A DNA stretch of 64,000 bases, from assembly GCA_013180625.2 (NCBI GenBank), contig SNVD02014502.1:62001-126000 (forward strand), written 5' to 3'. A model generated the notes under the pieces. That model searched no databases. It was not told the DNA's origin and saw nothing but the letters and a program-made list of their open reading frames with translations. The DNA is from Boswellia sacra. Lineage: Eukaryota > Streptophyta > Magnoliopsida > Sapindales > Burseraceae. The translations under genes and the position numbers were made by a program. The number at the start of each line of letters is the position of its first letter. Position 1 is the first letter of the stretch. Shown one piece after another: positions 54,001 to 59,452 of the stretch.

Positions 54001-56430
54001 ATGATGTACGTGTTCTCGACATCCAGAATGGTGGTCGTATGGCTTACACTTCTTGCATGCAATGCTAGTAGTATTACTGAAAAGTCTTCAGGGCAATTAG
54101 AAAGGGAAGCTCTACTCAAATCTGTTTGGTGGAGCAACAGCATGGTAAAAAATGCTTCAGATAATTGCAGCTAGGCTGGTATAGCTTGCAGTGACACAGG
54201 AAGCATCCTGGAGATAAACTTATACAATAATGGCATTAAAGAGGACCATGGCCAATTCAACTTCTCTTACTTTACAAACCTGAAAAGTCTTCGGCTTAAG
54301 TCCAATAATCTCCTTGGAAGCAAACCAGCACAAATTGGTCCCCTTTCAGAACTCAACTTTCTTGACCTGTCTGGGAACAATTTTACAGGTGAACTACCAG
54401 TTTTAGTAGTTAATGCATCCTCATCTCAGGCAGTTGGTATTGACCCTTTTTTCTTTTGATCACATCCTGTCCCTTCAACCATTGGTAATTTAAACTACGT
54501 GACATCTCTATATCTTCAATCCAACCAATTTTCTGGTTTTTTACCTCAAGAACTTGGGAATGTAACTAACTTTGACCTCTTGGAATCTCAGTAATAGCAA
54601 CCTAATTGGACCCGTTCCTTTAACTCTTGGTCAGTTAATCAACCTGAATAATTTACATCTTCAATTTAACAAGCTCAATGGCTCAATTCCTCAAGAAATT
54701 GGCAACAGCTTGAAGTTGCAGAATTTAAATTGAGCAACAATTATTTGAGTGGAAGCATTCCAGTAGATATTGCCTATCTTCCAGACTTATATAACCTTAA
54801 GATATAACTTCATCAGAGACACGATACCTTCAGCACTTGGAGAAACGCCAAACTTAGGATTCTTGTATGTTTCCCACAATAACCTCTCTCGTACCATCCC
54901 TGAATCTCTCAATGGAATATCTTACTTGGACATGTCATACAATGAGTTGCACCGCAAATACCCAATTAGTTTCCAACATATACCCCAATCACAATGATTT
55001 ATAGGTAACAAACACTTGTGTGGTTAAATTAGTGGCTTTAATTCTTACAATGAGCAAGCACCTACACCTTCCAGGACCGAAGACCTGGAAAAGAAACCTC
55101 AAATTTTGTGATATATTGCATGTTCTTTTCCTTTCATCACATTTTTCACAAAAATTCTAGGATTTGTGTGTTTCTTTAAATGCACGGATAAAGAAGTGTA
55201 ACTCCAGACAAGAGCTACCAAGAGTGGGGATGTGTTTTCAACATGGAATTATGATGGTAGAATGCATTTGAAGACGTAATTAAAGCAACAGATGATTTTG
55301 ACATCAAATATTGCATTGGCACTAGAGGTTCGGGTAGTGGGTACACAGCACAACTACCTAATGGAAATGTAGTCGCTTTGAAGAAGTTTCGCCATTCAGA
55401 GATTGAGGACTTCTTTGAAGAGTTTTCCGAATGAGGCTAAGCAGTATCCAAAATACAAATTGAAACATTGTGAAGCATATTATGCTTTTTGTTTGCATAA
55501 AACCTGCATGTTTTTGGTTTACAAGTACATGGAGAAAGGAAGCTTGTTCTATGCTCCATGCAATGATTATCTAGCTGTTGAGATAGATTCAATTAGAGGG
55601 GTTACCACGGTTAAGAATATAGCAAATGCTTTGTATTGTTTGCATCATAGCTTCACACCGTCAATAATTCACCGTGACATATCAAGCAACAACATTTTAC
55701 CAAACATAGACTTGGACGCATTTGTTGCTGACTTTGGCACAGCTAAGCTTCTACATTCTGACTCATCCAATCGAACAATACTAGCTAGCAGGAACTTATG
55801 GATATATTTCTCCGGGTCAAGTCAGCTAATCTTATGCTCTTTTATGATCTACCATTTCCATAACAGGTATACTACATGCCACCTATTAAATAATAGTCTC
55901 AGATACTAAAAAAATTTTATGCATATTGTAATCGAAAGGTAGCCTTGAATTACTTGTGCAATACAACCCAGAAAGATCAATTCTTACTTCTGAATGAACT
56001 AAGATATCTCCATCTAAGGCCTCAAATTTTTTAATGCAGAGTTTGGCTACACCATGGCTGTGACAGACAGACAGAGAATCTTTATAGTTTTGGGATCATG
56101 GCACTAGAAACATTAATGGGAAGGCATCCAGGAGAACTCTCATCATCTTGGAATCAAAGTAAAATGTTAGTTGATGTACTTTACCCCTGTCCTGTGGCGC
56201 CAGTTGATCATAAGATTTTTCATGATATTGCTTTTACTTCAGCAATAGCATTTGCATGCTCGCGATTGAAACCAAAGTCTCAGCCTACAATGCAATGTGT
56301 CTTTCAAGAATTTCTTAACCAAAGGACATCTAAATCTCTGCATGATATATCTATTTCACAACTCAGAAACCAAGAAATGTATTTGGTCAAGGAATTTCAT
56401 AACAGTCAAGAATGTATTGTTGATGAATGA
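54001..56430 (+). pseudogene. LRR receptor-like kinase relic (MIK2-type)
   Basis: The relic starts with a signal-like MVVVWLTLLACNASSI and the LRR cap QLEREALLKS. A TAG at 54,172-54,174 sits where the cap motif normally has Trp (CS-stop-AGIAC). LRRs follow (LKSLRLKSNNLLGSKPAQIG, LNFLDLSGNNFTGELP, NLNNLHLQFNKLNGSIPQEIG) across several frameshifts and stops to about 54,990. The kinase part has AQLPNGNVVALKKFRHSEIE with a damaged glycine loop (55,320-55,400). FLVYKYMEKGSL, SIIHRDISSNNILPN and VADFGTAKLL follow at 55,510-55,760. After a probable intron there is a frameshifted activation segment and MALETLMGRHPGEL to a stop at 56,430. HRD and DFG survive, but multiple breaks rule out a full receptor. 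The family perceives cell-wall and damage signals at the plasma membrane. Confidence 0.9.
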
Positions 56431-56465: not shown

Positions 56466-56470
56466 ATTAC
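56466..56470. repeat. Target-site duplication, left (attac)
   Basis: The five bases attac directly before the left LTR match the five bases after the right LTR. Confidence 0.9.
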
Positions 56471-56836
56471 TGATAGGATCTGAACACTTCACACACGCTC
56501 ACAAAGAATTTAGCTAAGTTTTTAAGAGTGAATTTAGGTTAGAGACATTAGACAAAGCTGAATTGAGAGAGAAATTTAAAGGTTTATTAGACTGTAAGGC
56601 AGCAGACTTTCGAGAGGTCTGCCAGCTCTCCCAGGAGAAAACAAATCTCACACAAAACTCAAAAAAACATACCCCCCTCACTCTCCCTCTCTCTCTATAT
56701 ATATCTAGTCTCTAACTAACTCTCCAGCTGTAACTAACTCCCACAGCCCCACAATTTCCAGCATAGCATAACAGAAAACAACACTCCCCTTTAATTCACC
56801 ATTCTGCCCTTCTATATTCACTGCCTGTGTCTATCA
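56471..56836 (-). repeat. 3' LTR (relative to the element)
   Basis: Directly repeated at 59,083-59,447. Terminal TG...CA with a 6-bp inverted end (TGATAG/CTATCA). A TATATATA motif sits near 56,695-56,704. Confidence 0.93.
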
Positions 56837-56988
56837 TTACCCCCCGCCCAACTTTCACCTTGTCCTCAAGGTGAATAGTAGGAAATTTATAGGATCAGTT
56901 TGCACTCTTCTTCGCTGCTTCACAGCCTCTGCCTCTTTAGCCTTAAGTTCAGTTTTCTGCCCTTCCTTCTCCTCCATAAGCTTCACTA

Positions 56989-58410
56989 AATCTTCTTCTT
57001 CAAGAACATATCATGTGCCATTATTTCCAATATAGCAGATTGACATTGATACTTATATGACAAATTCAGAGCCTCCATTTCTGTCATATTTTCACGTTCA
57101 GGAGATTGCAATTTAGAAATTGCTGAAACTGAGTTGGACAGTTGTTTCCACAACATTCCAGAGCTTTTCAACCCCTCCAAAATATTTGTGTAGTGACGAG
57201 CCCCTTGCCACAATGCCTTTAGAAAGTTAAGTAGGTTCAGCAGTATGTGAGGATTGCTATTAATAAGGTCATCAGATCTTTCACTATGCTGCAAAAGTGT
57301 ATCTACCAGACTTGATTTTTTGGACCTCAGCAGCCCTAAGGAAGCTTCATTTGTTGGATGCTTTGCGCCATCACCATTACTAGGTTGAGCCTCCATAAAA
57401 TCTTTTTCACAAAATAAAGCAATAAGAAAAACAGGCTGATAATATACAGCTGCAGTGAGAAGATTCGCAAAAGCAACAAATAGATCTTCATTTTCTATCG
57501 ACCGCAGCATGCAATCAATAGAATGCCTTAAATCTGCAATCTGAATAGCAGGATCACGAAAATATGAGATCAAGGATGTAACGGCTGCAACAACAGGAAC
57601 CGAAGTGGTTGTAGATGACAGCACAGCTTGGTGAAAGAAGTGAAGGCTTGAAGATGTTTCCTTTGAGAATTTTGAGAGCCTGATATACAAAATATTCAAA
57701 ACAGAACCTATAGCAAGTTGTAAACCTTCAATCTCCATCAAGTTAGAGGTGGGAATGACATAAAGTTTCTCTAAGGCTTCTGTAGTTGTACAAACAATCC
57801 GAAAGAGTGTGTTGTGGATGGAAGAATCACAGAGTAGCATACTCCTGATGACCTCACCTAATTTCCCAGACCACAAGGTTGACATAATGCATGTTTTCAT
57901 CACTTCCAGAACCTTCAATGTTACTTTCCATCGAACATGCTTCACCTTATATTTCCAGTACTCATGGTTGACTAGAATATACTGCCGAGAGAAAACAACT
58001 AAAGCCAGGACAAAATCATTCTCCAGTCCTGTCCCTACAAGCTGCATGGTAAAGTCGAGCATGTAATTTCTCAAGGCCAAGTTCTGGTGTTGAATTGGTT
58101 GGGCCAGCTGCATTATCCAGCCCAGCCCATGAGGTTGCAGCAGTCTGAACTCAGCCTCCACCTCTGGTTTTAATACGTTTACGAAAGTCCCCTCTAGAAC
58201 CTCCTCAGCGACGCCGTGAAAAGACGTTACAAAAGTCTCAAACTGCCTCCGATCTCCTCTCACTATTCCGCTCTGTCTTCGATATTCTCTCACTGTTCCA
58301 CTCTCCCTTAACGCCAAATATTTCTCAAAGTTGGTTCCTTCCTGCGTCGACCAAAATCGGGTCAGTAACAGAGCCTTCAGCTCCTTCCAGTGACGTATCG
58401 GCCTGCGTCA
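56989..58410 (-). pseudogene. NUP205: gag C-terminal part fused in frame to an intron-less NUP205 fragment
   Basis: One open frame runs from just after a TGA in gag (about 58,410) to a stop at 56,989. It begins with retrotransposon gag sequence (FETFVTSFHGVAEEVLEGTF, LKPEVEAEFRLL), which contains a small internal duplication (REYRRQSGIVRGDRRQ). At about 58,010-58,040 it changes to plant nucleoporin NUP205: DFVLALVVFSRQYILVNHEY, KVKHVRWKVTLKVLEVMKTC, LCDSSIHNTLFRIVCTTTEA, IEGLQLAIGSVLNILYIRLS, NEDLFVAFANLLTAAVYYQP and AILEIMAHDMFL. NUP205 is a large inner-ring scaffold of the nuclear pore, encoded by a multi-exon gene; here roughly 340 residues are continuous without introns. Around SYFRDPAIQIADLRHSI about 30 residues expected from the family seem missing. 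A Met-initiated product is uncertain because no good ATG starts the frame. Confidence 0.85.
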
Positions 58411-59053
58411 ATCCTCCCACTGGAACCAAGTTAGGGCTTCGCCGTCAAAACTCACCGCCGACGCCTCTATTTTTTCCGCGTCAGTCATGCGATTGAGGGA
58501 GAAGTACCTCTCCGCCTTGAAGACCCACCCATCGGGATTGCTTCCGTCAAACAGCGACATCTCCAGTCGTCGCTGCAGTCAGTTATCTCTCCCGTAGATT
58601 TCGCCGGCGTGGTAGCTCCCAGGCGTAGATGGTGGCACTGATGAACTAGCGCCCGATCCTCCCAAAGTGGCCTGGAACACCGTCATCTCGACCCTACGGG
58701 TTCTGATCTCGCCTCTTGCTAAGCCATCGATTTTCCCTCCTCCGGCGGTGTAAGGAGTCGATCCTCCTCCGTTTCCCTCCATTCGGTGCCTTCTGTCTGG
58801 ACAACGACGCAGGGGGGTGAGTACCCTCTCTGTTCTTCCCTGTCGATGATTTTTGCTTGGCTCCCGACGACGAAGCTGTTGTATCGCTTTCGTTAACCTT
58901 CGCTAACCTCTCCAAACACTCCAGTATGGCCGCCACCTTCTGCTCCAGGAATGGAATCCTGGACAGTCCTTCTTTAACCACTCCGATATCTTCTTGGAAA
59001 CGGGTAAGTCTTTCCTCTAACGCCTCCATTCTTGCTTCCGTTATCTTAGCCAT
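58411..59053 (-). pseudogene. Ty3/gypsy gag N-terminal part, broken
   Basis: The frame starts at 59,053, just after the primer site, with MEALEERLTRFQEDIGVVKE, a coiled-coil gag N-terminus. It shifts frame around 58,780, has a stop near 58,580, then continues with SLFDGSNPDGWVFKAERYFS and GEALTWFQWED, the conserved retrotransposon gag core, ending at a TGA about 58,410. The breaks prevent a normal gag polyprotein, so movement would need proteins from another element. Confidence 0.85.
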
Positions 59054-59063
59054 TTCAAGATCT

Positions 59064-59080
59064 TACTGCTCTGATACCAA
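59064..59080 (-). other. Primer-binding site (initiator tRNA-Met)
   Basis: On the minus strand ttggtatcagagcagtaag follows the 5' LTR end. TGGTATCAGAGC is the usual complement of the plant tRNA-iMet 3' end. Confidence 0.9.
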
Positions 59081-59082
59081 TT

Positions 59083-59447
59083 TGATAGGATCTGAACACT
59101 TCACACACGCTCACAGAGAATTTAGCTAAGTTTTTAAGAGTGAATTTAGGTTAGAGACATTAGACAAAGCTGAATTGAGAGAGAAATTTAAAGGCTTATT
59201 AGACTGTAAGGCAGCAGACTTTCGAGAGGTCTGCCAGCTCTCCCAGGAGAAAACAAATCTCACACAAAACTCAAAAAAAATACCCCCCTCACTCTCCCTC
59301 TCTCTCTATATATATCTAGTCTCTAACTAACTCTCCAGCTGTAATTAACTCCCACAGCCCCACAATTTCCAGCATAGCATAACAGAAAACAACACTCCCT
59401 TTTAATTCACCATTCTGCCCTTCTATATTCACTGCCTGTGTCTATCA
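59083..59447 (-). repeat. 5' LTR (relative to the element)
   Basis: Near-identical to 56,471-56,836. A TATATATA at 59,306-59,315 upstream of the gag start could be the element promoter. Confidence 0.93.
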
Positions 59448-59452
59448 ATTAC
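59448..59452. repeat. Target-site duplication, right (attac)
   Basis: Matches 56,466-56,470. Confidence 0.9.

Follow-up and report, generated by a model that had tools for sequence, protein, structure and literature searches.

LTR elements of plants are well known to pick up host genes, as shown by Bs1 and by surveys of maize, rice and sorghum (PMC13317346, PMC7264820, PMC2774510). Bs1 of maize is an LTR element that carries segments of several host genes (PMC13317346). The maize B73 survey reported 425 intact LTR elements with gene fragments, representing at least 189 captures, and it reported no case in which pieces of two or more standard nuclear genes sat in one element (PMC2774510). Spliced RNA is retrotransposed in the SpIREs of human LINE-1, which are copies without the spliced segment; LINE-1 is a non-LTR element, and the splicing occurs in its own 5'UTR/ORF1 (PMC5860796). 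Likewise, in the SDARE process of murine leukaemia virus, genomic RNA that has been spliced is packaged and, after reverse transcription, becomes integrated, with a splice donor that belongs to the virus (PMC10496198). For retroviral oncogene transduction, the proposed steps are read-through or chimeric RNA, co-packaging and non-homologous recombination (PMC4997597, PMC515179).

The locus described here lies in a 64,000-nt stretch of Boswellia sacra DNA (hereafter the window). The element in question is very probably, to judge from sequence comparison, a young non-autonomous Ty3/gypsy-type element with a fragment of a host NUP188 mRNA inside it, from a family that would have taken up host mRNAs repeatedly and whose captured sequence would then have been re-spliced. 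Like Bs1, this family has segments of several host genes. It differs from Bs1, as reviewed, in comprising at least 40 loci with differing cargo, in having three cargo genes (NUP188, malic enzyme and PI-PLC) that are intronless in the elements and have intron-bearing counterparts in the same genome, and in showing GT-AG segments that went missing after capture. In contrast to the maize B73 survey, single elements here combine NUP188 with the end of a PPR gene, malic enzyme with PPR, or PI-PLC with NUP188. The likeness to SpIREs and SDARE would be in the spliced RNA; here, however, the element is a plant LTR element, the missing segments lie in captured host cDNA, and the sites are chance sites in the cargo or at its joint. 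Compared with oncogene transduction, the window element is not a virus. A literature search that covered few subscription journals returned no description of an LTR element in which host cDNA was spliced after its capture. What appears to be new is thus the marks of splicing in a multi-gene LTR family, gene capture itself being known from Bs1.

How plant LTR elements come by host genes is difficult to work out from isolated, old examples. In this instance the joints can be read base by base, because one genome holds the cargo genes, their intron-bearing counterparts, uncaptured gag sequences, and sister copies of which some keep and others lack a given segment. Should the splicing reading be true, the spliceosome would keep trimming a captured gene as the element moves, which would provide a route to new exon combinations without DNA breaks or a transposase.

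The element is complete with respect to its LTRs, occupies positions 56471-59447 of the window and reads on the minus strand, as do its LTRs, primer site, gag, NUP188 cargo, tail and polypurine tract. Alignment of the LTR pair delimits a 5' LTR of 365 nt (59083..59447) and a 3' LTR of 366 nt (56471..56836), which have TG..CA termini and differ by four substitutions, all of them transitions, and one indel. A 5-bp target-site duplication, ATTAC, stands on both sides (56466..56470 and 59448..59452). With assumed substitution rates of 1.3e-8 to 2.2e-9, the divergence of the LTRs places the insertion at about 0.4 to 2.5 million years ago. Beside the 5' LTR we read the primer binding site TGGTATCAGAGC (59068..59079), which would fit initiator tRNA-Met, and beside the 3' LTR the polypurine tract GGGCGGGGGG (56840..56849). 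Next to this tract lies a tail common to the family (56850..56991), consisting of the end of a PPR-type frame and then a portion that looks like the end of an integrase. An earlier note on this DNA had described paired LTRs, a 5-bp target duplication, a polypurine tract and a recent jump, all of which are borne out; the primer site that it assigned to tRNA-iMet is likewise present. The element sits directly downstream of a remnant of an LRR receptor-like kinase gene (54040-56430, named by eye) with stops and frame changes.

The gag gene begins at 59053 and extends over 58062..59053; one change of frame and two stop codons interrupt it. When two pieces covering its central part were searched together, with an X at one stop, the Retrotrans_gag profile matched with an E-value of 1.8e-6 and 28.5 bits against a cut-off of 24.1; searched singly, the pieces gave E-values of only 0.015 and 0.17, and Ty3_capsid reached 17.8 bits, under its cut-off of 29.1. 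Between gag and the 3' LTR there is no long pol frame, so that the arrangement in the earlier note, with gag at one end and pol absent, stands. A 443-codon frame instead crosses from gag into the NUP188 piece. A protein search for relatives of gag and of the tail gave no scoring match. The window element is a young, non-autonomous LTR retrotransposon, probably of the Ty3/gypsy type. Within its gag, a 30-nt tandem duplication is present at about 58240-58302, the two copies of which differ at six sites.

We identify the cargo as NUP188. It is a 1.07-kb open frame of host coding sequence at 56992..58061, in which exons e1-e8 of the parent gene are joined without the introns that the parent has at these places. 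In the PDB it matched a plant nucleoporin chain, 9sob_B, named Nucleoporin (DUF3414), with an E-value of 3.4e-86, and the eight remaining matches (E up to 10) were weak. We take 9sob_B to be the Arabidopsis NUP188 homologue At4g38760. The gene At4g38760 is given as the NUP188 homologue of Arabidopsis in PMC6006428. A full-length homologue of the cargo, P0019, bears the Nup188_N domain, and several other homologues are named NUP188, which rules out NUP205, the gene to which the cargo had been assigned in the earlier note. That note was right about an intronless piece of nucleoporin coding sequence of about 1 kb and about where it lies, and the NUP188 sequence is somewhat wider than the 56989-58040 it gave. 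In a protein tree of 24 rows, the cargo groups with Pistacia, Citrus, Acer, Dipteronia, Xanthoceras and one further sequence (support 100/100), its position inside this group not being resolved by the tree; the host parent NUP188 is 80% identical to that of Pistacia across the cargo part. In Citrus, three proteins (P0001, P0008 and P0013) contain fragments of NUP188 fused to the start of a different protein, which by eye looks PB1-like, and P0008 additionally bears PF10551, presumably a MULE transposase; NUP188 pieces in Citrus may have been rearranged with another type of transposon.

We searched the host genome (G000, 638.6 Mb in 7431 contigs) for the cargo. A NUP188 gene on contig C3708 matches it in seven blocks separated by introns. 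All eight introns between e0 and e8 of this gene are GT..AG, and the joined frame is without a stop; the exon joins of the cargo thus coincide with introns of the parent, and the cargo has none of them. By our own reading of the genome search, 13 places match NUP188 continuously across one or more exon joins, with the intron missing. They include the window and two full-length sisters, L010 (on C7427) and L011 (on C2972); one shortened kind, L012-L015; another shortened kind, L016 and L017; and four places with a smaller part of the gene (L023 on C6127, and one each on C6587, C6709 and C7215). L010 and L011 each possess an LTR pair and a target duplication (AATTT and GACAC, respectively) of their own, and they share with the window both the NUP188-tail joint and, 87 nt aside, the break point in gag. 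Because these three copies share joints at different sites, the element moves as a unit, and the host mRNA fragment was inside it before the insertion seen in the window, both as the earlier note had proposed. That a NUP188 copy was in place before the LTRs inserted is ruled out by the sister copies. Partial NUP188 copies on C3831, C2572, C5772, C4363 and C1284 match exon by exon, with about 90-100% identity to the cargo in single blocks; these copies probably have introns, and one of them, rather than the gene on C3708, could be the exact donor. L013 and L014 have the same 3' flank and are possibly one locus present twice in the assembly.

The description of a mobile nucleoporin gene fragment is correct as to mobility and incomplete in that the element belongs to a family with several host genes. 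With the tail as query, 40 of 137 candidates were scored, and these gave 41 matches at 40 loci. The elements that we read number 23, namely the window copy and L010-L031; every one was recruited by the NUP188 or the tail query. An LTR pair is present in 22 of them, L015 having none within its stretch, and LTR identity ranges across copies from 91.7% to 99.8%. Among the 22 LTR-paired copies, the 5-bp target duplication is exact in 16 and has at most one mismatch in 18; none was found for L013, L014, L021 and L024. These 22 have a common primer site, tail (partial in L012-L014) and polypurine tract region, and vary in the interval from gag to tail. Pfam identified PPR proteins among the cargo, and L020 has a malic enzyme domain (Malic_M, E 3.9e-82) in an 844-codon frame, its cargo being an NAD-malic enzyme. 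In the genome search, malic enzyme was found as four intronless copies and as a gene in 12 blocks on C6835. L023 contains a PI-PLC-like piece (E 2.2e-4, under the Pfam cut-off), a search with which led to a split locus on C864, one intron of which we checked by eye. By eye, we also recognised nucleocapsid and protease remnants in family elements. In the window, the C-terminal end of a PPR-type frame forms a second host piece, between NUP188 and the polypurine tract. The tail peptide EEDLVKLMEE trails PPR repeats in one frame in L018, and therefore the tail too is host-derived; by itself it gave only weak matches in Pfam and PDB. BAP31, considered at first as the source of the tail, was dropped, since the same peptide occurs inside PPR frames. 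Frames of 772, 844 and 732 codons run through gag and cargo in L016, L020 and L027.

The joint between gag and NUP188 (58061..58062) is where the window departs from its sisters. At this place L010 and L011 carry 87 extra nucleotides, ATTACA/GTGGGTGG...ATATCAG/TGCTCG, namely one G followed by parent exon e0 with its 86 nt. It is precisely this GT...AG stretch, with a single possible placement, that the window lacks, and the window copy thus resembles a SpIRE in being without a GT-AG segment that its sisters kept. The same 87 nt are absent from L012-L014 (by script) and from L015 (by sequence). In a tree of gag and the shared NUP188 part, rooted on the parent and built from seven copies and the parent (L016, L017, L023 and the copies on C6587, C6709 and C7215 were left out), the window groups with L010 and L011 (100/98) and L012-L015 form a separate clade (100/99). 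A topology that joins the window with L012-L015 was rejected (p-AU 0.004), and the window has the L010/L011 state at 77 of the 79 sites that separate the two clades. The gag-NUP188 joint in the window is a later product of the 87-nt removal and not the original capture joint. Because the window and a separate clade are without the same GT...AG segment, the element RNA was evidently, on these comparisons, spliced again after capture. The simplest reading would be that the gag-NUP188 fusion RNA can splice out the 87 nt and that both forms are copied back.

Other stretches are missing from copies of the family. Relative to the parent mRNA, the window, L010 and L011 are without 99 nt of exon e5 (CAG/GTTGGC..AAGCAG/ATTG, with the joint at 57540..57541 in the window), a removal with a placement ambiguity of 4, which could also be alternative splicing of the parent. 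L012-L014 are without 192 nt compared to the window (TTGAAG/GTTTAC..TTGCAG/ATTTAA), and L015 has the same joint; in L016 and L017 the missing stretch begins within e2 and ends within e7 (TTAG/GTGAGG..AAAAAG/ATTA, by eye). Removals of 260/261, 168, 273 and 99 nt (the last in the tail), in other cargo or gag, are not GT-AG, nor, by eye, is a loss in the PI-PLC piece. In total, 4 of 9 clear distinct events are GT-AG, all four within the NUP188 cargo, against a rate of 0.007-0.008 for random deletions simulated in the same sequences (P about 3e-7 to 4e-7, a value that is only descriptive because the test was devised only once the events had been seen). Two poorly fitting differences between copies (357 and 135 nt) had been dropped before this count, and the script alone flagged 3 of 10 removals, the L016/L017 case being added by eye. 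NUP188 models of Fagus (P0023) and Citrus (P0001 and P0013) skip a stretch with the same end as the 99-nt removal and a start five residues later.

The 87 nt and the other segments could in principle be ordinary deletions, arising without splicing from slippage or template jumps of the reverse transcriptase or from DNA repair. Such deletions would account for the five of nine removals that are not GT-AG and would fit the repeats at the ends of two that are, a 9-nt imperfect repeat in L012-L015 and a 3-nt repeat at the 99-nt removal. No repeat, however, predicts the 87-nt loss: CAGTG repeats flank the segment, and slippage between them would take 86 nt and leave one more G. This loss is moreover both GT-AG and recurrent in a separate clade, and 4 of 9 GT-AG events lie far over the simulated null, which together make deletion quite improbable as the general explanation. 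Another account has the 87 nt spliced out once, early, with the shortened joint reaching the lineage of the window by recombination between packaged RNAs. Recombination between LTR elements is common and the family is mosaic; yet at the diagnostic sites nearest the joint, at -3, +6 and +13 nt, the window agrees with L010 and L011 on both sides, so that the recombined tract would have to be very short or very early. We consider this history unlikely, and retain repeated splicing of the element RNA as the preferred reading.

The capture itself has left two kinds of joint. In L010 and L011 the 5' joint of NUP188 reads ATTACAG/TGGGTGG, which is the start of parent exon e0. The malic joint in L020 reads AGTTCGG/ATCTGGG, where the parent has CAATAG/ATCTGGG; we infer that ATCTGGG is the start of a malic exon because of the AG and of where the similarity ends. 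An uncaptured relative, L025, reads AGTTCGG/GTAATA at this place, and GT is present in three of four uncaptured relatives (L025, L018 and L016), L019 having AT. Splicing of gag onto a host exon would be expected to leave a joint like the malic one. With PI-PLC, whose 5' joint lies inside an exon, two of the three 5' joints examined (NUP188 and malic, the latter partly inferred) are at a host exon start. The 3' joints of NUP188 and of the L020 malic piece, on the other hand, lie inside exons at short shared runs, as template switching would leave them.

Template switching was the route that the earlier note had suggested, and it may be that it acted alone, between element RNA and mature host mRNA packaged together, with the exon starts due to chance or to the commonness of AG. 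We give this somewhat less than an even chance. The short shared bases speak for it (for NUP188, AG or CAG at the 5' joint and GAAGAAG at the 3' joint), as do the PI-PLC joint within an exon and the gag sequence at the NUP188 joint: we found no GT donor there, the uncaptured L022 and L027 reading ATTACAG/GCCTGT, so that splicing would have called for a GC donor or a GT variant since lost, the alternative being a switch on the shared AG. Template switching alone nevertheless leaves the NUP188 joint at an exon start unexplained, and likewise the gag GT and host AG exactly at the malic joint. On the reading that adds splicing, capture would start when gag sequence is spliced onto a host exon to give a chimeric transcript, and a template switch at the RNA level, inside a downstream exon, would then lead back into element RNA; these steps resemble those in models of retroviral oncogene transduction. 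Element RNA with cDNA that holds chance splice sites would sometimes be spliced again, and spliced and unspliced RNAs would both be reverse transcribed by enzymes supplied in trans. Some sister copies would in this way come to lack segments that others retain, the window copy being a re-spliced product. More broadly, the family may act as an exon trap, in which chance 5' splice sites in gag join host exons near new insertions, a template switch into the 3' end of the element closes the chimeric RNA, and the trapped cDNA is re-spliced in later rounds; we advance this tentatively, as a proposal that falls just short of even odds. If it is true, exons from unrelated host genes are shuffled and trimmed within a single small LTR family, through splicing at capture as well as afterwards.

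We found no clear evidence that the cargo is maintained as a selected protein. The four malic copies have no stops, with omega of 0.63 to 1.50 against each other (five comparisons, a sixth being undefined) and 0.24 to 0.54 against the parent (four comparisons); values below 1 against the parent are not taken as selection, because the parent is constrained and the mapping slightly favours L020, although some selection on the malic cargo within the element is conceivable. For NUP188, omega against the parent ranges from 0.46 to 1.8 in six comparisons, scattered around 1, and stops interrupt the frame compared in four of the seven copies (L011-L014); in all likelihood, selection does not act on the NUP188 protein piece.
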